Source: Alistipes sp.
GTDB taxonomy: Bacteria > Bacteroidota > Bacteroidia > Bacteroidales > Rikenellaceae
Assembly (NCBI GenBank): GCA_017630455.1
Contig: JAGBVG010000084.1
Coordinates: forward strand, 40,836-104,835
Length of the DNA: 64,000 nucleotides
Direction of reading: 5' to 3'
In this document: piece after piece, positions 8,702 through 53,440 of the stretch
How positions within the stretch are numbered: position 1 is the first letter of the stretch
Layout: every line of letters begins with the position of its first letter
Notes under the pieces: generated by a model
The model's input: the letters and a program-made list of their open reading frames with translations, nothing else
What the model was told of the DNA's origin: nothing
Database searches by the model: none
Translations under genes and position numbers: made by a program

Positions 8702-9082
8702 ATGGCTAATGTACCTGCTAATTTGAAGTACTCTAACGACCACGAGTGGTGCCGTGTAGAGGGTGATGTTGCCGTTATCGGCATTACCGATTATGCTCAG
8801 TCACAGCTTGGTGACATCGTTTTCGTTGACGTTCCTACCGTTGGTGAGAACATCGAGGCTAACGAGGTATTCGGCTCTATCGAGGCTGTTAAGACCGTTT
8901 CTGACGCTTTCTCTCCAGTAAGCGGCGAGGTTATCGAGTTCAATGAGGCTGTTGAGGCTGACTCTTCACTTGTAAACAAAGATCCATACGGCGAGGGTTG
9001 GTTGGTTAAGATTAAGATGTCTAACCCTGCAGAGGTTGAGGGTCTTCTTGATGCTGCGGCTTACGAGGCACTCATCGGATAA
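8702..9082 (+). CDS. gcvH: Glycine cleavage system H protein
   Basis: A 126-residue lipoyl carrier that shuttles the aminomethyl group between the P, T and L proteins of glycine cleavage. The lipoylation site is K64 in GSIEAVKTVSD, and HEWCR near residues 14-18 is the family N-terminal motif. Full length for the family. P, T and L genes are not in the window. Codon use is strongly biased to GGT/GCT/GTT types, suggesting high expression. Palindromic element E1 begins at the stop codon. Confidence 0.96.
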   Translation: MANVPANLKYSNDHEWCRVEGDVAVIGITDYAQSQLGDIVFVDVPTVGENIEANEVFGSIEAVKTVSDAFSPVSGEVIEFNEAVEADSSLVNKDPYGEGWLVKIKMSNPAEVEGLLDAAAYEALIG

Positions 9083-9210
9083 TTTTTGATTTATATAGGG
9101 CATCTTCGTCCTATCCCAAAAACTAAGTAACCTCGGGCTGTACGTCTTGTACTATCCCGAGGTTTCTTGTTTTGCGATAGAACAAATCTGCTCCTCTAAA
9201 ATCAAAAATT
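9081..9210 (-). repeat. Imperfect palindromic element E1 (type A), minus strand is the better-folding strand
   Basis: A 130-base inverted repeat starting inside the gcvH stop codon. The outer stem AATTTTTGATTT pairs with AAATCAAAAATT. Arm box 1 is ATATAGG opposite CCTCTAA; box 2 is GCATCT opposite AATCTGC. The central hairpin is AACCTCGGG (9129-9137) with CCCGAGGTT (9156-9164), then an asymmetric CT/TAT loop, GTAC-GTCTT-GTAC and a 5-base tip. On the minus strand box 2 becomes a tandem G.A/A.G inside AGAT/AGAT and the C.A mismatches become G.U. The arms (about 29 and 34 bases) are identical to those of E5 at 53031, but the central stem is unrelated. Confidence 0.85.
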
Positions 9211-9212
9211 AA

Positions 9213-9342
9213 AATTTGATATTGTAAGCTGCAATCTGCGGCATATATCAAAAAGATAACCCATCGGGACTGTACTTCGTGTACTATCCCCGATGGGTTA
9301 CTTTTGCTATGCACCACATCTCACGACTTCTAATATCAAATT
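9213..9342 (-). repeat. Imperfect palindromic element E2 (type B), tandem with E1
   Basis: This starts 3 bases after E1. The outer stem AATTTGATATT pairs with AATATCAAATT. Box 1 is GTAAG opposite CTTCT; box 2 is CAATCTGCGG opposite the CCACATCTCA region. The central hairpin has AACCCATCGGG with CCCGATGGGTT and a GTAC-TTCGT-GTAC tip. On the minus strand one A.C mismatch in the central stem becomes a G.U pair, and the tandem G.A motif is present. Confidence 0.75.
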
Positions 9343-9488
9343 ATAAGGCGATATCACAGATACCTCACTTTCCCCTTTCCCTTTTCTTGGTGCGCCCCGT
9401 CCTATACCCCTCCATATCGCAAACCCAATCGCGAGCCCCATCGCAAACCACCTCTTTACCACGTTCTGTCACTCTTTTATCGCTAAAA
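9343..9488. other. Gene-free stretch between E2 and the next promoter
   Basis: No coding sequence is supported here. It is pyrimidine-rich in its first half (runs of CCCTTT) and holds three 12-base direct repeats (see 9416-9451). No terminator with a T-tract is visible for gcvH. Confidence 0.6.
9416..9451 (+). repeat. Three 12-bp direct repeats, ATCGCaAaCCCm type
   Basis: Three adjacent units ATCGCAAACCCA, ATCGCGAGCCCC and ATCGCAAACCAC. They lie about 40 bases upstream of the -33 element of the lipoprotein gene at 9604, so they could be an activator- or repressor-binding array (inference). Confidence 0.6.
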
Positions 9489-9520: not shown

Positions 9521-9603
9521 TATCGGAGAAGTAGTTTTCTATTAATAACGCGCAAAGAGAAGAGATTTTGAAAGCTAATACTAACTTTAATAAAATTAAC
9601 TTT

Positions 9604-11931
9604 ATGAAAACATTTAGATGGTTAATGGTCGCAATGATGACCTTAACACTTTCGCTTGTGGCGTGCGAGAAGGATAAGCCAGAGCCACAGCCACAGCCAG
9701 AACCACAGCCAGAGCCACAGCCTGTGGAGCTTACATTCGATGTGGAGACTCTTAGCACTACTAAGAGCGAGGCTACATTCAACATCACACCTTCAAGCCT
9801 CGAGGCAGACTACATCGTAGCAGTTGTTCTCAAGAGTGAATTGGATGCGGATGATTATAGTGATGCTGAGATTGTCGGAGGTCTCTATCTCAAAATCCAG
9901 GATGTGGCTGAGGCAAACGGTACAACATTCGAGGCATTTATGGCTGAGAAGGTTAAGCGTGGTGCTCTTGAGGCGTACAAGGTTGAGAACCTCATAGTTG
10001 GTTCTGATTACTACCTTTTGGTATTTGGTGTAGATGTAAATAATAGCTTCGCATTGTCAGGTAAGGTGACTAAGCACGAGTTCTCAACAGAGGCTAACCA
10101 GCAGACACCTCCAACATCATCTTGCACATTCGAGGTTAAGGCTAACGTGAACCTCACAGCCGTAGCACTCAACGTTAAGCCATCTGACAACAACCAGTTG
10201 TGGCACCTCATCAACGCTCCTGTTGCGGAGTATGAGGCCTATACAAGCGCTGATGGCGAGTATGGCTGGACTAAGGAGGAGTACTTCCAGAACTACCTTA
10301 ACACCGAGATCGCTACTCTCAAGGAGCAGGGTCTTTCAGTAGATGAGATTGGCGTGAAGCTCTTCCATAAGGGTGTGCGTACGCTCAACGACTCAGGCCT
10401 TCAGCCTAAGACCAAGTATGTGACATTCACTGCTGCGGTAGACTACACCGATGGCGCTGCGGTAGCTACATCGGCTCTCAAGGAGTTGCGTTACAACTCT
10501 GGTGAGGCTGCTGAGAGCAACCTTACATTCGATATCGATGTATACAACATCAGCAACTACTCTGCTGAGGTGCGTATCACACCATCGGATCTCAACGCTA
10601 ACTACTATTACTACATCGGCTACATCGACAGCCAGAAGAAGAGTATGAAGCCTATCGACATTGCTAATGCTGCTGTTACTGAGTATATCTACTATTGGGA
10701 GAACTACACAGAACTCAAGCACCGCGACCCTGTAACTGGCGTTACAGACCTCACAGGCGAGAACAAGGTGGAGCTCAACATCGCAGAGACAGAGTACTTC
10801 GTGGTAGCGTTCAGCTTCGAGCCTAACCCAACATACGGTCAGCTTATCAACGAGGAGACTGGCGAGTATGACTACAACCCAGGTACTATCACCTCGGCTC
10901 CTGTATACGTGTCATTTATGACAGCAGAGCAGGGTGATCCTTACACTGCAAACTTCACTATCTCAGCATCGGATGTAGGTCCTTACGACTTCTACCTCGA
11001 GATTAAGGCTGACGATCCTACAATCTACTACCAGCCAGGTATCGCATACGCCGACAACTTCGACCCACAGGCAGCCCTCGACGCTTCAAGCCCAAGCCTC
11101 GCACAGCTTGTGCAGATGACTATGGAGGGTCAGAGCCCAAGCCTTACATTCTGGGAGGCTTTGGAGGAGAAGCTCACAGGCTACTACCGCAATGGTGATG
11201 GTAAGTACTACGTAGCTAACCTCGAGCCTAACCGCGACTATATCGGCTATGTATTGGCTATCGACGCAGAGAACCGCAAGTTCGCACGCTGCGTATATAG
11301 CGAGGTAATTGCAACTACAACAAACATCGGTTCTGTAACCCCAGAGCTTGAGCTTCTTGGTGTTTACAACGGTGAGCACGAGGCAGGTACTATCTTCGGC
11401 GATAAGAACTTGACTTCGGGCCGTCCTATCGTAGCTGTTAAGTTGAACAACATTGAGAACGCAACAGCTGCTTTTGCTGCACTCTCAACAGATCCATATG
11501 CCGACGTTGCAGCCCTTTCGGACCGCTACATCATCTCGGAGTTCCGTGGCTACTGGCAGCAGCTCTCAAGTATTGAGGTGCCTTACCACTTCTTCGTTGC
11601 TGAGTGGGATGTGGAGCAGACCGTAGTAGCTTACGCACAGGACCAGAACGGCCACGAGGCTAAGGTTGCTCGTATGGGTGTTACCCCTGTATCGGCTGGC
11701 GACATCGAGGAGTTGCGCGGCTACGTAGATGCTGTGAACAACGCTTCGGCGCAGGCTGTAGCAAAGTCTATGGTTATCGCAGAGGTTGCAGAGCCTACAA
11801 TGGAGTGCGTTTGGAGCCAGGAGGTTGGCGCACCACGTGCTGCAGAGGTTATCTACCACGAGGTTGAGCCACTCCACAGCGTTGCTTCTGACCTTGTTAA
11901 GGTTCGCGTTATCAAGAGCTTCTACTTCTAA
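9604..11931 (+). CDS. Large surface lipoprotein with repeated FN3-like domains
   Basis: The start is placed at ATG 9604 (775 residues) because it gives a proper signal: MKTFRWLMVAMMTLTLSLVAC with lipidated C21. An upstream in-frame ATG at 9568 would bury it. After a Pro/Glu/Gln spacer (PEPQPQPEPQ, about residues 25-40), the protein consists of about four to five all-beta repeats, each with a pattern like LTFDVETLSTTKSEATFNITPSS followed by DYIVAVV or YYYYIGYI and a YFVVAF strand. It resembles the repeat part of the BACON lipoproteins at 53557 and 55727, but lacks an obvious BACON domain. No catalytic motif; function unknown, probably cell-surface binding or glycan-related. Strong codon bias suggests high expression. 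Confidence 0.8.
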   Translation: MKTFRWLMVAMMTLTLSLVACEKDKPEPQPQPEPQPEPQPVELTFDVETLSTTKSEATFNITPSSLEADYIVAVVLKSELDADDYSDAEIVGGLYLKIQDVAEANGTTFEAFMAEKVKRGALEAYKVENLIVGSDYYLLVFGVDVNNSFALSGKVTKHEFSTEANQQTPPTSSCTFEVKANVNLTAVALNVKPSDNNQLWHLINAPVAEYEAYTSADGEYGWTKEEYFQNYLNTEIATLKEQGLSVDEIGVKLFHKGVRTLNDSGLQPKTKYVTFTAAVDYTDGAAVATSALKELRYNSGEAAESNLTFDIDVYNISNYSAEVRITPSDLNANYYYYIGYIDSQKKSMKPIDIANAAVTEYIYYWENYTELKHRDPVTGVTDLTGENKVELNIAETEYFVVAFSFEPNPTYGQLINEETGEYDYNPGTITSAPVYVSFMTAEQGDPYTANFTISASDVGPYDFYLEIKADDPTIYYQPGIAYADNFDPQAALDASSPSLAQLVQMTMEGQSPSLTFWEALEEKLTGYYRNGDGKYYVANLEPNRDYIGYVLAIDAENRKFARCVYSEVIATTTNIGSVTPELELLGVYNGEHEAGTIFGDKNLTSGRPIVAVKLNNIENATAAFAALSTDPYADVAALSDRYIISEFRGYWQQLSSIEVPYHFFVAEWDVEQTVVAYAQDQNGHEAKVARMGVTPVSAGDIEELRGYVDAVNNASAQAVAKSMVIAEVAEPTMECVWSQEVGAPRAAEVIYHEVEPLHSVASDLVKVRVIKSFYF

Positions 11932-20240: not shown

Positions 20241-22616
20241 ATGAAAAAATCTATATTTCTATTAGTCGTAATGTTGTGCCTGCCGATGTTGGTAATGGCG
20301 CAGCGTACCTTGTCGGGCAGGGTTACCGACGCAAATAATGGACAGCCTCTCGTGGGTGCCACACTCTACTGGAAGAATACCACTGCTGGTGCTACCTCTA
20401 CTACCGATGGCAGCTACTCGCTTAAGCGCGTATCGGGTTTTGAGACTCTTGTTGTCGACTTCCTCGGCTACGATGTTGTGGAGATGGAGGTGGCTAAGGA
20501 TGCCGCAACCCTCGACATCGAGCTAATCCCATCGGCTGTGGATATCGACGAGGTTGTCGTGGAGGGTCAGCAGCGCGGTAACTATGCCAAGAGCAGCGGT
20601 ATCACACGCTCGGAGCAGATCTCGTTTGCCGGATTGTGCAAGATGGCGTGCTGCTCGCTCGCGGAGTCGTTCGAGAACTCAGCTTCGGTGACTGTGGGTT
20701 ATAGCGATGCTATCTCGGGAGCGCGACAGATCAAGATGCTCGGCTTGGCAGGTACATATACCCAGATTTTGGATGAGAACCGCCCTATTATGCAGGGCGC
20801 GGGTGCTACCTACGGCCTTAGCTATACGCCAGGTATGTGGCTCAACTCCATCCAGGTGTCGAAGGGTGTCGCTTCGGTAACTGCGGGTCACGAGGCTATC
20901 ACAGGTCAGATTAACCTCGAGCACCGCAAGCCTACCGACGACGAGCGTTTTTTCCTAAACCTCTACTTCGACTCGGAGCTTCGTCCCGAGATCAACGTCT
21001 CGTCGGCTATTCCACTTACTAAGGATAAGAGCCTCTCGACGGTGATTATGGCGCACGGCTCTCTCGATACGTCGCACCACGATATGAACCACGATGGCTT
21101 TGCCGATATGCCAAAGTCGAACCAGATAAACGTAGCAAATAAGTGGTTATGGCAGAATAGCGGCGGCGTGCAGCTTCGCTGGGGTTGGAAGGTTGTCAAC
21201 GAGAACCGCCTCGGTGGTGAGATGGCATATAAGAAGGATCTCTACGACGAGATGATGAGCAATCCACTTGCTACGCCATACGGCTCGCAGATCCATAACC
21301 GCAATATCAACGCATACGTCAAGCTCGGCATCCCTGTGGGTTATGAGCGTACCTTCACTGGCGACCCTGATGATGCTGTGCAGAACAACGTGGCGATGAT
21401 TCTAGATTATGACAACTACCTCACCGACTCATACTTCGGTATCAACAACGTAGATGTTATGGAGGATGCCTTCCGCTTCAATGCCACCTACGCCCACTAC
21501 TTCACACAGCGCTCGTCTCTCAATGCTGGTGTGTCGGGATATCTGCGCCTGATGGACAACAACTATCTTCAGCAGAGCGTCTCGGAGGCGGGTGTCATAG
21601 CGCCAATGTGGAGCGTAGATGGCAAGTCGATGCTTGCCGAGCCAGGTGTTTTTGCTGAGTATACCTATAACATCGAGGAGAAGTTCTCGTTGGTAGTAGG
21701 TGTTCGTGGCGACTATTCGATGGTTGATGGTAGCTACTACTACGATTCGAAGCCGCAGCTGCTCCTCACGCCACGCTCACACATAAAGTGGAACATCACG
21801 CCACGCACCACGCTTCGTGCCTCGGCAGGTATGGGCTACCGTCGCCAGAACCTCGTGACCGACAACATCTGGATGATGACCACATCGCGAAATATCGTTA
21901 TGAACAGCGACGATCCTGCGTTGCCAAAGCTCACTGACGATATGGAGGCTGCTGCGACATTCGGAGGTAGCATCTCGCAGACATTCCGCCTTGCGGGTGA
22001 CGACCAGACAACAATCAGCTTCGACTACTTCCGCACGCAGTTCCTCAACACTATGGTCTTTGACCAGGAGACTGCCGACAATACTATACTTATATATAAC
22101 ACCGATGGTAAGTCCTATACCGATAACTTCCAGGTGGACTTCAACTGGACACCATTCCGCGGCTTCGACCTCTTCGCTACATTCCGCTACACAAATGCGA
22201 AGATGACCTTGGAGCGCGATGGTAAGCAGTATCTCGTGGAGCGTCCGCTCACCTCACGTTATAAGGGTCTTATCAACATCCAGTATGCCGTGCAGCGCTG
22301 GGTATTCGACGTTACCGCACAGTTGAACGGCCCTATGCGACTCCCAGAGTTGGGTGGCGACCTCGTTAAGGCGCAGACCAATCCAGAGTTGTCTCCAGTA
22401 TATCCTATGTTCTTCGCGCAGGTGAGCTACAAGATGAGTAACCTCACGCTCTACCTCGGTTGCGAGAACATCGCAAACTACTTACAGGGTGTCGATGGTC
22501 ACGGCAACACGCCTATCGTGGGTGTGCCATATCACGATGGCTTCAACTCTTCACAGGTGTGGGGTCCGCTTATGGGTCGTAAGTTCTATATTGGTCTCCG
22601 ACTAAATATATACTAA
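20241..22616 (+). CDS. TonB-dependent outer-membrane receptor (metal-type)
   Basis: 791 residues. Signal peptide to about residue 20 (LVMAQ), a carboxypeptidase-regulatory-like domain (about 22-100; LSGRVTDANNGQPLVGATLYW), a plug domain, then a 22-strand-type barrel ending in FYIGLRLNIY. The plug carries an unusual cysteine cluster C133, C137 and C138 (LCKMACCSLAESFE), which I associate with receptors next to HMA and copper genes. No SusD partner follows, so it is not a standard glycan SusC. Together with its neighbours it suggests import of a metal or metal complex. Element E3 begins at its stop. Confidence 0.88.
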   Translation: MKKSIFLLVVMLCLPMLVMAQRTLSGRVTDANNGQPLVGATLYWKNTTAGATSTTDGSYSLKRVSGFETLVVDFLGYDVVEMEVAKDAATLDIELIPSAVDIDEVVVEGQQRGNYAKSSGITRSEQISFAGLCKMACCSLAESFENSASVTVGYSDAISGARQIKMLGLAGTYTQILDENRPIMQGAGATYGLSYTPGMWLNSIQVSKGVASVTAGHEAITGQINLEHRKPTDDERFFLNLYFDSELRPEINVSSAIPLTKDKSLSTVIMAHGSLDTSHHDMNHDGFADMPKSNQINVANKWLWQNSGGVQLRWGWKVVNENRLGGEMAYKKDLYDEMMSNPLATPYGSQIHNRNINAYVKLGIPVGYERTFTGDPDDAVQNNVAMILDYDNYLTDSYFGINNVDVMEDAFRFNATYAHYFTQRSSLNAGVSGYLRLMDNNYLQQSVSEAGVIAPMWSVDGKSMLAEPGVFAEYTYNIEEKFSLVVGVRGDYSMVDGSYYYDSKPQLLLTPRSHIKWNITPRTTLRASAGMGYRRQNLVTDNIWMMTTSRNIVMNSDDPALPKLTDDMEAAATFGGSISQTFRLAGDDQTTISFDYFRTQFLNTMVFDQETADNTILIYNTDGKSYTDNFQVDFNWTPFRGFDLFATFRYTNAKMTLERDGKQYLVERPLTSRYKGLINIQYAVQRWVFDVTAQLNGPMRLPELGGDLVKAQTNPELSPVYPMFFAQVSYKMSNLTLYLGCENIANYLQGVDGHGNTPIVGVPYHDGFNSSQVWGPLMGRKFYIGLRLNIY

Positions 22617-22678
22617 TTTGTTGTGATAAGCAGTCAATTTTACCGAGCGTTGTATCTAACTGCTTCTGACAACAAATT
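22615..22678 (-). repeat. Mini palindromic element E3 (short type B)
   Basis: A 64-base inverted repeat starting at the TonB receptor stop codon. AATTTGTTGTGATAAGCAGT pairs with ACTGCTTCTGACAACAAATT, keeping the same G.A/T.C positions in box 1 as E4 and E6 (GATAAG opposite CTTCTGAC). The right box 2 ATCTAAC is kept, but its left partner is changed and the central GTAC hairpin is missing. It could be a deletion derivative or a minimal form. Confidence 0.65.
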
Positions 22679-22737
22679 GCAAATAGGTATAATATTTATA
22701 AAATAGATACGTTAACTTAATAAAACATTATAAGACT

Positions 22738-41294: not shown

Positions 41295-42965
41295 ATGAAG
41301 ACAGATATTGAAATCGCAAGAGAGACCAAACTCAAGAATATTCGTGAGATTGCTGCTCAGGTTGGCTTTCCTGATGACGAGGTGTTCAACTATGGTAAGT
41401 ACATTGCCAAGGTGCCTTATCGCCTTATCGACGAAAAAAAGGTGCAGAAGAATCACCTTATCCTCGTAACAGCCATCACAGCTACCAAGGCTGGTGTTGG
41501 TAAGACCACCGTGAGCATCGGTCTCGGTATGGGTCTCAACCACATCGGCAAGAAGGCTATCATCGCACTTCGCGAGCCATCGCTCGGTCCTTGCTTCGGT
41601 ATGAAGGGTGGTGCTACAGGTGGCGGCTATGCACAGGTGTTGCCATCGGAGGATATCAACCTCCACTTCACTGGTGACTTCCACGCCATCACCTCGGCGA
41701 ATAACCTCATCGCAGCGTTGCTCGATAACTACCTCTACCACAACCGCTCTACGCAGGTGGGCTTGAAGCGTGTTATGTGGCGTCGTGTGCTCGATATGAA
41801 CGACCGCTCGTTGCGCAACATCGTGTCGGGTCTCGGAGGCTCGTCAAATGGCATCCCAACAGAGACAGGTTTCGACATCACCCCTGCGTCGGAGATTATG
41901 GCAATCTTGTGCCTCGCGCAGAGTGTCGAGGATCTCTATGTGCGCATTGGTCGCATCGTTCTTGGTGTGCGCTACGATGATACTCCGCTTACGGTAGACG
42001 ACCTTGGTGTTACAGGTGCTGTGGTAGCGTTGCTCAAGGATGCTATCAACCCTAACCTCGTGCAGACCACAGAGCACAACCCTGTGATCATCCACGGCGG
42101 TCCTTTTGCAAATATCGCCCACGGCTGTAACTCTGTTATCGCTACCAAGACCGCTATGACACACGCCGAGTATACCGTTACCGAGGCAGGTTTCGGTGCC
42201 GACCTCGGTGCCGAGAAGTTCCTTGACATCAAGTGTCGCCAGGCGGGTCTCAAGCCTGACCTTACGGTGCTTGTGGCATCAACGCTCGCTCTTAAGATGC
42301 ACGGCGGTGTGCCAGAGACGGAAATCAAGCTCCCTAATGCCGAGGGTCTCAAGTGTGGCTTCGCGAACCTCGATCGCCACGTTGCCAACCTCAAGAAGTT
42401 TGGTCAGACGGTGCTCGTATGTTTCAACCGCTTTGCCAGCGATACCGACGAGGAGATCGCTATGGTTATGCAGCACTGCGAGGATCTTGGAGTACGTTGC
42501 GTAATCAACAACGCATACGCCGAGGGTGGTGCTGGAGCTGCAGATCTCGCACGCGCCGCGGTGGAGCTTATCGAGACACAGCCATCTGCGCCTATCAACT
42601 ACGCTTACAACCTCGAGGACTCTATCGTTGAGAAGATTACCAAGGTTGCTAAGAATATCTATGGTGCTGGCACTGTGGTATTTGGTCCTAAGGCTAAGAA
42701 GCAGATTGCGCTCCTCGAGAAGTGGGGTATGAACAACCTCCCAGTATGTATCGCCAAGACTCAGTTCTCATTCAGTGCCGATGCCAAGCGTTACGGCTCT
42801 GTGGAGGGCTTCGAGATCAACATCAAGGATATCGAGCTTAACGCAGGTAGTGGTTTTATCGTAGCACTCGCAGGTGACATTATGCGAATGCCAGGTCTCA
42901 GCAAGACGCCTCAGGCAGGAAATATTCACTTGGCGGAGGATGGAACTGTAGAGGGCATCGTATAA
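41295..42965 (+). CDS. fhs: Formate-tetrahydrofolate ligase
   Basis: 556 residues from ATG 41295 ([16 protein letters not shown]), the normal family length. P-loop [16 protein letters not shown], then [25 protein letters not shown], a family hallmark. It makes 10-formyl-THF from formate, THF and ATP, linking to glycine cleavage (gcvH) and folate polyglutamylation (folC) in this window. The FNT-type channel at 23200 could supply formate (inference). Element E4 starts in its stop codon. Confidence 0.97.
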
Positions 42966-43093
42966 TTTTCTTGTGATAAGGGGTCATCTTCGGCACCAAA
43001 CTCATTGTCACGAATGGGGATGTACGCTCAGTACACCCCCATCCGCGCCAATTTCGATTTGGCACCAAATCTAACCCCTTCTAACAAGAAAAT
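42965..43093 (-). repeat. Imperfect palindromic element E4 (type B)
   Basis: Outer stem ATTTTCTTGT with ACAAGAAAAT. Box 1 is GATAAG opposite CTTCTAAC, box 2 is GTCATCTTCG opposite CAAATCTAAC, then a further paired part GGCACCAAA with TTTGGCACC. The central hairpin is ATGGGG/CCCCAT with tip GTAC-GCTCA-GTAC. On the minus strand the central hairpin is fully paired with one G.U, so this copy lacks the CT/TAT loop of E1, E2, E5 and E6. Four C.A/A.C mismatches in the arms become G.U on the minus strand. No T-tract follows, so it is not a normal terminator. Confidence 0.82.
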
Positions 43094-43137
43094 GGGCGCT
43101 TATCGCTAATTAACGTTTAGTCCTAATTGATAAAACT

Positions 43138-50392: not shown

Positions 50393-50478
50393 TATGCCTG
50401 AATTAGCCTAATCGCAGATGGCGTGGGGCAGAATGGCAGATGTTATTGAGAAAAATAATAACAAAAAATATATATAAA

Positions 50479-53031
50479 ATGAGTCAAAAGTCTAACACAG
50501 AGCAGCTTACGACTGTAGCATACGAGGATGCTGTAGCTGCGTCGAAGGGTTATTTCCAGGGTGATGAGCTTGCCGCACAGGTGTGGGTGAGCAAGTATGC
50601 CTTGAAGGACTCCTTCGGAAATATCTATGAGTCTACACCAGAGGATATGCACCATCGTATCGCAAAGGAGTTGGCGCGTGTCGAGGCAAACTATCCTAAT
50701 CCTTTGACCAAGGAGGAGATCTTTACACTTCTCGACCACTTCCGCTATGTGATCCCACAGGGTGGCCCTATGACCGGTATCGGTAACAACCTCCAGGTGG
50801 CATCGCTCTCTAACTGCTTCGTGATTGGTCACAAGAATCCTGCTGACTCATACGGCGGTATCTTCCGTATGGATGAGGAGCAGGTGCAGCTTATGAAGCG
50901 CCGTGGTGGTGTTGGTCATGACCTCTCGCACATCCGTCCTACAGGTAGCCCAGTGCTTAACTCGGCTCTCACCTCTACGGGTATCGTGCCATTTATGGAG
51001 CGCTACTCAAACTCTACACGCGAGGTGGCGCAGGATGGCCGTCGTGGTGCGCTTATGCTTTCGCTTCTTATTAAGCATCCCGATGCCGAGCACTTCATCG
51101 ATGCTAAGGTTGATACAGGTAAGGTTACGGGAGCGAACGTATCTATAAAGATCGACGATGAGTTTATGCGTGCCGCTGTGGCAGGCGAGCCTTATCGTCA
51201 GCAGTTCCCTATCGGCGTTGAGAATCCTGTCGTAACACGCGATATCGATGCCAAGAAGCTTTGGAATAAGATTATCCACAATGCGTGGAAGTCTGCCGAA
51301 CCAGGTGTGTTGTTCTGGGATACCATTATCCGCGAGAGTGTGCCCGATTGCTATGCCGATGAGGGCTTCCGCACCGTATCTACAAACCCTTGTGGCGAGA
51401 TTCCACTCTGCCCTTACGACAGCTGCCGTTTGTTGGCGCTCAACTTGTTGAGTTACGTTGAGGCACCTTTTACAAAGGAGGCAAAGTTCAACTTCGACCT
51501 CTTTAAGAGCCACGTGGCTAAGGCTATGCGCCTTATGGATGATATCATCGACCTCGAGCTTGAGAAGGTTGACCTTATCATCTCGAAGATTGCCTCAGAC
51601 CCTGAGGATGACGATGTACGCCGCGTGGAGTTGGAGTTGTGGCATAAGATTCGTACTATGGCTCTCAAGGGTCGCCGTACAGGTCTCGGCATCACTGCTG
51701 AGGGTGATATGCTCGCGGCTCTCGGTCTTCGCTACGGCTCGGAGGAGGCTATCGACTTTGCAGTAAACGTACACAAGACCTTGGCTGTGGAGGCATACCG
51801 CGCCTCTGTAGCTATGGCTAAGGAGCGTGGTGCGTTCGGAGTTTATAACTTCGAGAAGGAGCAGGGTAACCCTATGATCGAGCGTATCTGCGAGGCTGCA
51901 CCAGAGTTGCGCGAGGAGATGAAGAAGTATGGTCGTCGTAACATCGCTATGCTTACCATCGCGCCTACGGGTACTACATCCCTTATGTCGCAGACAACTT
52001 CGGGTATCGAGCCTGTCTTCCGCCCTGTATATAAGCGTCGTCGTAAGATCAACCCTTCGGATAAGGAGCAGACAGCATCATTTGTGGATGAGACTGGCGA
52101 GAAGTTTATAGAGTACTACGTCTTCCACCACCAGTTTGTTAAGTGGTTGGAGATCAATGGCTACGACACTTCGAAGCTTCAGAATATCTCGGAGGAGGAA
52201 CTTAATAAGTGGCTTCAGGCGTCGCCATACTACCACGCCACGGCAAACGATATCGACTGGGTTGCTAAGGTGAAGATGCAGGGTGCTATCCAGAAGTGGG
52301 TAGATCACTCTATCTCGGTTACCGTGAACCTACCTAACGAGGTTACCGAGGAGCTTGTGGCAGATGTATACCGCACAGCGTGGGAGTCGGGATGTAAGGG
52401 TATCACCGTATACCGCGATGGCTGCCGCGATGGTGTATTGCTCGACGTAAACTCTAAGGATGGCAAGAAGAAAAATTGCTCTGGCACAGGCTCTAACCGC
52501 CGTCCAGAGTCTATCCCTGCCGACATCGTGCGTTTCAAGAATGGCAAGGAGGATTGGATTGCTTTCGTAGGTAAGCAGGATGACCGTCCATACGAGATCT
52601 TCACAGGTAAGATCGAGGAGGATGCTATGTATATCCCTAAGACCATCACCCACGGCCACATCCTCAAGGTTACAGAGGCTAATGGCACAAAGCGTTACGA
52701 CTTCCAGTACCAGGATCGCTATGGATATATCAATACCATCGGTGGTATCTCGCGCCTCTTCGACGAGGAGTTCTGGAACTACGCAAAGCTTATCTCGGGT
52801 GTTCTCCGCTACGGTATGCCTATCGACAAGGTTGTGCAGCTCGTAGATGGTCTCCACCTCGACTCTGAGACTATCAACACCTGGAAGAATGGTGTGGAGC
52901 GCGCTCTCAAGCAGTACATCAAGGATGGTACTCGTGGTAAGGGCCGTTGCCCACAGTGTGGCCAGGAGAATATGGCATACCAGAATGGTTGCTTGACTTG
53001 TATGGCGTGTGGTTATTCCAAGTGCAATTAG
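50479..53031 (+). CDS. nrdJ: Adenosylcobalamin-dependent (class II) ribonucleotide reductase
   Basis: 850 residues from ATG 50479 (MSQKSNTEQLTTVAYEDAV). Class II catalytic barrel with SLSNCFVIGHKNP, KRRGGVGHDLSHIRPTGS, the active-site segment STNPCGEIPLCPYDSCRL and APTGTTSLMSQTTSGIEP. The C-terminus carries a zinc-ribbon-like set CPQCGQ...CLTCMACGYSKC that contains the re-reducing cysteine pair. It makes deoxynucleotides in the cytoplasm without oxygen, but needs cobalamin, as does mutA-mutB here. No cobalamin riboswitch is visible upstream. Strongly biased codon use. Elements E5 and E6 follow. Confidence 0.96.
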   Translation: MSQKSNTEQLTTVAYEDAVAASKGYFQGDELAAQVWVSKYALKDSFGNIYESTPEDMHHRIAKELARVEANYPNPLTKEEIFTLLDHFRYVIPQGGPMTGIGNNLQVASLSNCFVIGHKNPADSYGGIFRMDEEQVQLMKRRGGVGHDLSHIRPTGSPVLNSALTSTGIVPFMERYSNSTREVAQDGRRGALMLSLLIKHPDAEHFIDAKVDTGKVTGANVSIKIDDEFMRAAVAGEPYRQQFPIGVENPVVTRDIDAKKLWNKIIHNAWKSAEPGVLFWDTIIRESVPDCYADEGFRTVSTNPCGEIPLCPYDSCRLLALNLLSYVEAPFTKEAKFNFDLFKSHVAKAMRLMDDIIDLELEKVDLIISKIASDPEDDDVRRVELELWHKIRTMALKGRRTGLGITAEGDMLAALGLRYGSEEAIDFAVNVHKTLAVEAYRASVAMAKERGAFGVYNFEKEQGNPMIERICEAAPELREEMKKYGRRNIAMLTIAPTGTTSLMSQTTSGIEPVFRPVYKRRRKINPSDKEQTASFVDETGEKFIEYYVFHHQFVKWLEINGYDTSKLQNISEEELNKWLQASPYYHATANDIDWVAKVKMQGAIQKWVDHSISVTVNLPNEVTEELVADVYRTAWESGCKGITVYRDGCRDGVLLDVNSKDGKKKNCSGTGSNRRPESIPADIVRFKNGKEDWIAFVGKQDDRPYEIFTGKIEEDAMYIPKTITHGHILKVTEANGTKRYDFQYQDRYGYINTIGGISRLFDEEFWNYAKLISGVLRYGMPIDKVVQLVDGLHLDSETINTWKNGVERALKQYIKDGTRGKGRCPQCGQENMAYQNGCLTCMACGYSKCN

Positions 53032-53155
53032 TTTTCGATTTATATAGGGCATCTTCGTCCTATCCTAAACAAAATATCGTGGGCTGTACGTCAAGTACTA
53101 TCCCACGATATTTTTTATTACGATAGAACAAATCTGCTCCTCTAAAATCAAAAAC
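53031..53155 (-). repeat. Imperfect palindromic element E5 (type A)
   Basis: Starts at the last base of the nrdJ stop. Outer stem GTTTTCGATTT with AAATCAAAAAC. The arms are base-for-base the same as E1 (TATAGGGCATCTTCGTCC on the left, GATAGAACAAATCTGCTCC on the right). The central stem is unrelated to that of E1: AAAATATCGTGGG (53071-53083) with CCCACGATATTTT (53102-53114), 13 perfect pairs, then CT/TAT loop and GTAC-GTCAA-GTAC tip. Minus-strand folding has tandem G.A plus two G.U in the arms. Confidence 0.87.
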
Positions 53156-53156
53156 A

Positions 53157-53284
53157 TTTTGTTGTGATAAGGGGTCATCTGCGTCACATCTCTAAAAGTA
53201 AACTACCAAGGGCTGTAGGTTAACTACTATCCCTTGGTAGTTTCTTTTGTGATGTAACACATCTAACCCCTTCTGACAAGAAAT
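53157..53284 (-). repeat. Imperfect palindromic element E6 (type B), tandem with E5
   Basis: Starts 2 bases after E5. Box 1 TGATAAGGGG opposite CCCCTTCTGACA; box 2 GTCATCTGCG opposite CACATCTAAC; inner arm pair CACATC/GATGTAA. The central hairpin is AAACTACCAAGGG (53200-53212) with CCCTTGGTAGTTT (53231-53243), 13 perfect pairs, CT/TAT loop, and tip GTAG-GTTAA-CTAC. The tip swap from GTAC/GTAC to GTAG/CTAC is a compensatory change. Three C.A mismatches become G.U on the minus strand. Confidence 0.85.
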
Positions 53285-53308
53285 TAATTTCGCTAATTGA
53301 GGTTTTTG

Positions 53309-53440
53309 TTTTTGGGGATTGTGGGTAGTTATGGAGATTATGGGTAGCGGATACACAATCCCTAAACTCTCTAAATTCCTTAAACTACCTAAACACACGT
53401 TACCCATCTCTACTCATCAATCCCTATAACTCCCCAAAAT
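53309..53440. repeat. Third, looser inverted repeat after E6 with 9-bp tandem units in its loop
   Basis: TTTTGGGG (53310-53317) can pair with CCCCAAAA (53432-53439), and the flanks (GGGTAGTTATGG region against CTATAACTCC region, TGGGTAGCG against CGTTACCCA) continue an imperfect stem of about 36 bases. The loop holds four degenerate 9-base units (53362-53397): CTAAACTCT, CTAAATTCC, TTAAACTAC, CTAAACACA. No coding sequence is supported here. Confidence 0.5.

Follow-up and report, generated by a model that had tools for sequence, protein, structure and literature searches.

A dispersed family of strand-polar hairpin repeats mostly beginning at stop codons in Alistipes-related gut bacteria

Alistipes-related gut bacteria carry dozens to more than 100 copies of a foldable element of about 130 bases at the ends of ordinary genes. 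The element was studied from a 64,000-nt stretch of Alistipes sp. DNA (contig JAGBVG010000084.1; here called the window, to which all coordinates refer), whose own genome, labelled G000, amounts to 2.0 Mb in 93 contigs. Five imperfect palindromes in the window (E1, E2, E4, E5 and E6) and a shorter core-less unit at 22614–22679 are members of this dispersed repeat family. A first-pass annotation, made from the letters of the window alone, had assigned the five palindromes a constant frame in which the paired stems vary; the pattern holds up and is stranger than was described there. The explanation that we favour, at somewhat less than an even chance, is that the elements are non-autonomous repeats handled as folded template-strand DNA, which would operate like integron attC sites or repetitive extragenic palindromes (REPs) and be members of neither class.

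The five palindromes lie where the first-pass annotation placed them, and all five are recovered by a covariance model (R1) built from an alignment of 30 own-genome copies. All six units are on the plus strand. E1 (9080–9211), an A-type unit and the first of a pair, has the TAA stop of gcvH as its first three bases and matches R1 on the minus strand with 139.4 bits. E2 (9212–9343; 122.5 bits) is a B-type unit that follows E1 head-to-tail. E4 (42964–43094; 99.2 bits) has the core type GGGGATGTAC..GTACACCCC and sits at the stop of the formate-tetrahydrofolate ligase gene with an offset of −1. E5 (53029–53157; 126 bits), again A-type, starts at the TAG stop of the ribonucleotide reductase gene (50440–53031), and E6 (53155–53286; 140.8 bits), a B-type unit with a GTAG/CTAC tip, follows it head-to-tail. 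The mini unit (22614–22679, 66 bp; 42.9 bits) is at the TAA stop, offset 0, of a TonB-receptor-like gene (20241–22616). The common plan proposed for the palindromes was borne out, with a GTAC-N5-GTAC tip (GTAG/CTAC in E6), GGG..CCC and mismatch boxes. Two of its details were not. The loop, given as five bases in all five copies, has 4–6 nt across 110 parsed family copies, and the central stems, said to be unrelated, recur: nine cores with identical left and right 8-mers are found in more than one copy. The first-pass annotation had also overlooked that E1, E4 and E5 start at stop codons, that E1+E2 and E5+E6 are head-to-tail arrays, the turnover from species to species, and the near-independence of the nested stems.

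A blastn search with E5+E6 returned 43 matching pieces in the own genome. With R1 there were 112 matches over both strands of G000, reduced by hand to 74 places (65 scoring at least 50 bits), and 149 over both strands of a relative, G017, for which 61 places from 367 kb of stretches were used. Unit length is 128–134 bp in 130 of these 135 listed copies. R1 matches occur in 22 of 61 genomes (own and 60 relatives); all 22 are in one genus (37 genomes), none of the 24 genomes from other families of the order has a match, and three of the 22 (G015, G031 and G033) carry a distinct sequence type only. Copy number inside the genus runs from no R1 match to at least 55 per genome. Among the matches listed for an exact 22-mer, the family is found in metagenome-assembled genomes (MAGs) titled Alistipes sp. 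or Rikenellaceae bacterium, and the host, where the titles name one, is a ruminant. A scan of 393 genomes drawn from the order, in which eight candidates per genome were scored under strict filters and weak relatives can be missed, gave an R1 match only in the own genome and in two others, G202 (locus L330) and G268 (locus L331). These belong to other families of the order and have one weak R1 match each, with tandem units and the same boxes; the second tandem unit is an R1 match at E 0.004 in G268 and was seen by eye in G202. The G202 array starts at the TAA of a dnaJ gene, and in G268 a GH43 glycosidase gene ends at a TGA lying within the first unit. The architecture therefore extends beyond the reach of R1. 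Using blastn, E5+E6 had no match in phages or plasmids, and no exact 18-mer match was found in viral contigs. In the open-licence literature on palindromic elements at stops, Bacteroidota, Alistipes, attC and REP (preprints lie outside it) we recognised no description of the family.

Most arrays begin at a stop codon and in one orientation. An array head was scored as anchored when a frame on the same strand, 100 codons or longer, had its stop within −6 to +12 of the unit start. Enough upstream sequence was available for 106 of 108 heads (two were dropped); frames were counted mechanically, uncurated, and the starts are those of the model matches. A qualifying stop was observed at 93 of the 106, at offset exactly 0 in 59, before the unit start in 25 and after it in nine. 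The mirrored test from the other end gave 3/105 and random positions 228/10,800 (2.1%), while 222 of 3,993 other intergenic TAA (5.6%) are such stops.

This anchoring bears on a rather unlikely alternative, in which the elements are selfish palindromes of the miniature inverted-repeat transposable element (MITE) or REP kind. A conventional transposase, unrecognised or missing from the assemblies, would move them, their stems would drift by compensatory mutation, and insertions would survive only beside stops, the hairpin then acting as a terminator. The inverted ends, dispersed copies and patchy copy number fit such an account. So does the finding that, of 106 units, 83 have four or more consecutive T in the 24 nt past the core when read on the plus strand and 78 when read on the minus strand, and so do some empty gene ends that read as having ordinary terminators. 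Survival alone is, however, not a ready explanation of 59 of 106 heads at offset exactly 0 in a single orientation. The right flanks of units vary and no constant duplication was seen, and a terminator scan flagged none of the five full window copies. A TA target duplication was rejected, the right flanks being inconstant.

It is the minus strand, the template strand of the upstream gene, on which structure is conserved. On both strands the five window palindromes fold far better than their dinucleotide shuffles (z −5.4 to −12.1), with no shuffle matching the observed energy, and in each of them the minus-strand fold is the better one, both as DNA and as RNA. Of the cells in the 30-copy alignment, 94.1% are paired under the minus-strand structure; shuffling lowers this to 73.1% and sliding to 41–47%. 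Two-sided change is found in 29 of 40 pairs (shuffled mean 20.4), and the covariation score is 0.561 against 0.187 shuffled and 0.09–0.12 slid; alignment and structure were drawn from the same 30 sequences, which biases these comparisons toward the unslid version, though the margin is large. The consensus energy is −45.0 kcal/mol for the minus strand and −20.9 kcal/mol for the plus strand. On the minus-strand consensus G.T cells exceed A.C cells by 132 to 17, compared with 45 to 31 on the plus-strand consensus; restricting the count to columns at least 50% Watson–Crick gives 69 to 17 and 29 to 31, respectively. Across 126 units scoring at least 50 bits, the minus strand folds better in 125 with DNA parameters and in 121 with RNA parameters. 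Both the variable paired stems in a constant frame and the selection on the minus strand, as the first-pass annotation had them, are supported by these figures; covariation is strong and wobble support unequal between the strands, so that two outcomes which that annotation had named as refuting it did not occur.

The same fold might instead be that of a structured RNA, which we consider unlikely. Such an RNA, either a minus-strand antisense transcript or a 3′-end RNA, would combine a conserved scaffold (tandem G.A box, wobble pairs) with variable stems; its siting at gene ends would come from regulating the mRNA 3′ end and its turnover from gene conversion. The wobble pairs and the AGAT/AGAT box are equally compatible with RNA, and related structures stand directly after 5S rRNA in three low-copy loci. 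The conserved strand is, on the other hand, antisense to the upstream gene. Rfam 15 has no match at gathering score in the window, in line with the first-pass annotation, which had recognised no named family, and only chance-level matches on three loci (L001, L330 and L331; E-values up to 5); a known RNA family was rejected on these results. No site was found at E5/E6 or E4 in a sigma-70-type promoter scan, outside which Bacteroidota promoters fall, and its one plus-strand site, some 220 bases past E2, is at or below the shuffled mean.

Cutting the units at their boxes yields outer, mid and core stems (parsing succeeded for 120 of 126 units, with a probably wrong register in some A-type ones). 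These nested shells vary nearly independently, and the two sides of each shell stay matched. Within a shell the left–right mutual-information excess reaches 0.63 and 0.72 of its maximum, or 0.58 and 0.68 when only the 102 unique haplotypes are counted, linking the two sides despite about 100 nt between them. Between adjacent shells the excess is weaker, 0.19 and 0.23 for outer–mid on one arm and 0.33 for mid–core (0.13, 0.18 and 0.22 for unique haplotypes), though it tops all or nearly all of 2,000 shuffles. For outer against core it is 0.11 when every unit is counted and 0.00 on unique haplotypes. Seven of the nine repeated cores occur in at least two mid-shell pairs; the core ATCACCCT is found in AGGGG and AGCCG arms, which are whole different stems. 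E1 and E5, with identical arms and different cores, are one instance of shell independence. In three young subfamilies the tip loop belongs to the more variable parts, with 7 loops in 12 copies, 7 in 10 and 6 in 10.

The 108 arrays comprise 83 single units, 23 pairs and two triples. Arrays in G017 are closed by a tail motif, GCTRATTGAGGTGG, and the window has a copy with two mismatches at 53292–53305 (plus strand). Allowing up to two mismatches, there are 35 matches in the G017 stretches and the window, 33 of which follow an element, 29 at no more than 10 bp and the rest at 45–134 bp; the remaining two are probably chance. A lone ancestral tail motif as the target was rejected, with 33 of 35 matches behind elements and no convincing lone tail.

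Close species do not have the same units at a given gene end. Of 30 loci read at the end of the ribonucleotide reductase gene, nine have units, of several types, at the stop and 21 have none there; all nine fall among the 14 closest genomes (at least 89% identity), a count confirmed with R1. Two of the unit-free loci, in G017 and G075, have an R1 unit in opposite orientation 0.2–0.3 kb further on, which probably belongs to the convergent neighbour. A second gene end (L091) has an R1 unit in seven of eight loci, the eighth, in G000, having a divergent unit recognised by eye, and a third has units in eight of ten loci, a contig end truncating one of these. At each of seven gene ends compared between G017 and G075 the set of units is different, with some units common to both; the aligned blocks of the two genomes are 83–96% identical there. 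The downstream sequence of empty gene ends often reads as an ordinary terminator. A further alternative, very unlikely, involves no transposition: the elements would be structures that the host itself encodes at gene ends, as bidirectional terminators or mRNA protectors, passed on vertically and altered through slippage, template switching and gene conversion. In its favour, orthologues often share occupancy while their units differ, some mini units fit a deletion between CATCTGC repeats, the tip is inverted in one unit and related structures follow 5S rRNA in three loci. Against it, copy number differs strongly between species of one genus and near-identical units stand after many different genes.

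The search for a mobilising enzyme was conducted in MAGs, which are incomplete, and absences of enzymes are accordingly soft. Y1_Tnp (PF01797, the Y1 HUH transposase) was found in 0 of 61 genus genomes, with a control search positive in 5 of 14; mobilisation of the RAYT (REP-associated tyrosine transposase) or IS200 type was rejected on this result. For the possibility, raised by the first-pass annotation, that the copies are decayed remnants of an insertion sequence, the same result applies, and no insertion-sequence parent was recognised in a parent search that was not exhaustive. By eye, no parent transposon with the same ends was recognised beside the copies read, no genome search for an end-flanked gene having been made. 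The integron integrase (TIGR02249) was over the cut-off in none of 16 genomes (78–99% complete), and a classical integron was rejected on this result and on the absence of the boundary triplets. Generic tyrosine recombinases had a match in all 16 genomes, equally in the four without an R1 match. Of 12 copy-rich genomes five have a reverse transcriptase (RVT_1, PF00078), as have five of 10 in which R1 has no match; the seven copy-rich genomes lacking it are 78–89% complete and include G017 and G075, the latter classed as copy-rich from blastn. A retroelement of the retron or group II type as the driver was rejected, RVT_1 not being associated with copy-rich genomes. A single autonomous copy in the low-copy genomes was also set aside: no transposase was recognised by eye beside six units of the distinct type, where no family search was made.

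A mechanism for handling of the elements as folded template-strand DNA can be outlined. The working form would be the upstream gene's template strand, folded as a single strand. An enzyme might recognise the fixed mismatch boxes of that strand (box 1 GTGATA/TTCTRACA, box 2 ATCT/ATCT), and the same enzyme would deliver units beside the stop codon. Material could be exchanged across the stem of the folded strand, so that a single step would place an inner hairpin on a different outer stem. The core hairpin of a unit already installed may act as a transcription terminator as well. A more specific and doubtful proposal is that the elements form a Bacteroidales class of mobile hairpins, spanning the Alistipes-like genus and two other families, in which copying as folded single-stranded DNA, delivery to stop codons and enzymatic cutting and rejoining across the stem at the mismatch boxes would shuffle concentric modules.

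Several observations weigh against this account. No mobilising enzyme was identified: Y1_Tnp was in 0 of 61 genomes, integron integrase was over the cut-off in 0 of 16, and generic tyrosine recombinases match equally in genomes with no R1 match. Fold energies fail to separate RNA from DNA, the minus strand winning with both parameter sets. Thirteen of the 106 array heads lack a qualifying stop within −6 to +12, four of these having a long-frame stop 8–13 bases ahead of the unit. The gene ends read include no clean pre-insertion site; the empty ones are followed by other sequence. Some mid-shell differences around shared cores are single bases. Asymmetric left/right chimaeras also occur: 14 of 120 units match at 0–2 of five mid-shell bases, some of them probably mis-parsed A-type units, and one G075 unit is a clear chimaera. 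Stem-by-stem compensatory mutation could also give the shell independence, as could internal gene conversion with selection for pairing.

Further features were noted around the elements. Eight low-copy genomes yielded 28 units, six of which form a distinct sequence type that keeps the same (G)GGCTGTAC..GTACTATCC(C) core on different arms (L282, L292, L297, L283, L285 and L287). A 5S rRNA directly precedes L282, L292 and L297, L283 starts with an apparent cut 5S end, and L285 and L287 have no 5S match. Four structures of the distinct type (from G024, G030, G031 and G033) were folded, the minus strand again being better. This type with the shared core is possibly a vertically kept relative or the source of the family. 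Mini units without a core are seen in the window at 22614–22679, at L326 and at the end of site 4 in L097. CATCTGC direct repeats are present in both arms, and deletion between them fits some mini units. In the first unit after the gene at L329 (G075:C31) the tip of the core hairpin is inverted relative to the stem (GAGGATAGTACAATTAGTACAGCCTC). Three loci of G000 (L065, L066 and L069) have related units (CTTTGTTGATATAACAG..) with no recognised stop there, and the sequences past their right ends are similar. Past E6 (about 53300–53440), as past the array tails of G017, G/A-rich runs are followed by complementary C/T-rich runs (GGGAAGATA.. / ..TATCTTCCC), a further repeated fold-back layer at gene ends. 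The next plus-strand frame after E1/E2 (9568–11931; 787 aa, TTG start) has no Pfam match at 1e-5.

Delivery to stop codons, if true, would mean that DNA mobility is coupled to the ends of genes, for which the only precedent known to us is attC behind cassette genes. If concentric stem exchange is true, recombination on folded single strands reaches well beyond integrons. Either would offer, through numerous copies that turn over quickly from one close species to the next, a tractable system for hairpin-DNA recognition and for how gene cassettes could first have acquired a recombination site. Were the elements a structured RNA, they would be an abundant gene-end element of ruminant-gut bacteria with no entry in the Rfam searches made (the window and three loci).

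Like intrinsic terminators, the elements place a hairpin behind genes with T often following; unlike them, they are long and nested, have conserved mismatch boxes and, in 125 of 126 units, take their better fold on the template strand. With MITEs they share terminal inverted repeats. The enterobacterial repeat unit RU-1 is also known as ERIC. In the abstract of PMC2759123, the intergenic repeat units RU-1 and RU-2 are described as 127 and 168 bp long and MITE-like, and our elements resemble them in length, dispersal and MITE-like character. Most arrays of our elements are stop-anchored, tandem arrays occur, and the structure is strand-polar with variable stems; no constant target duplication was seen. 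REPs are 20–40 bp long with a GTAG or CGTC tag, according to an excerpt of PMC3733652. The REP, BIME and REPIN elements associated with RAYT (TnpA-REP) are likewise many extragenic palindromes, some near stop codons, whose palindromy is preserved while stems vary (PMC2817692 and PMC12306157, each in part). In contrast to REPs, the elements are about 130 bp long, stand head-to-tail and have no GTAG/CGTC tag at the foot. The closest likeness is to integrons. An attC site lies behind its cassette gene, and the attC bottom strand is therefore the template strand of that gene. In our elements, too, it is the template-strand fold that is constrained, the constraint observed being structural. They differ from attC in standing behind housekeeping genes, outside any integrase-led cassette array, and in their near-independent nested shells. 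Most unit ends read TAATTTNTTG..CAANAAATT, and by-eye comparison with the attC boundary described in a portion of PMC2727003 shows that the AAC..GTT boundary triplets (R″ AAC, R′ GTT) are not at their ends. The same portion describes attC as an imperfect palindrome with the bottom strand selected, a stem broken by unpaired regions and a variable terminal structure; our elements are likewise imperfect palindromes with one strand constrained, an interrupted stem and a variable tip. The folded bottom strand of an integron attC is the nearest working analogy, with no membership claimed.

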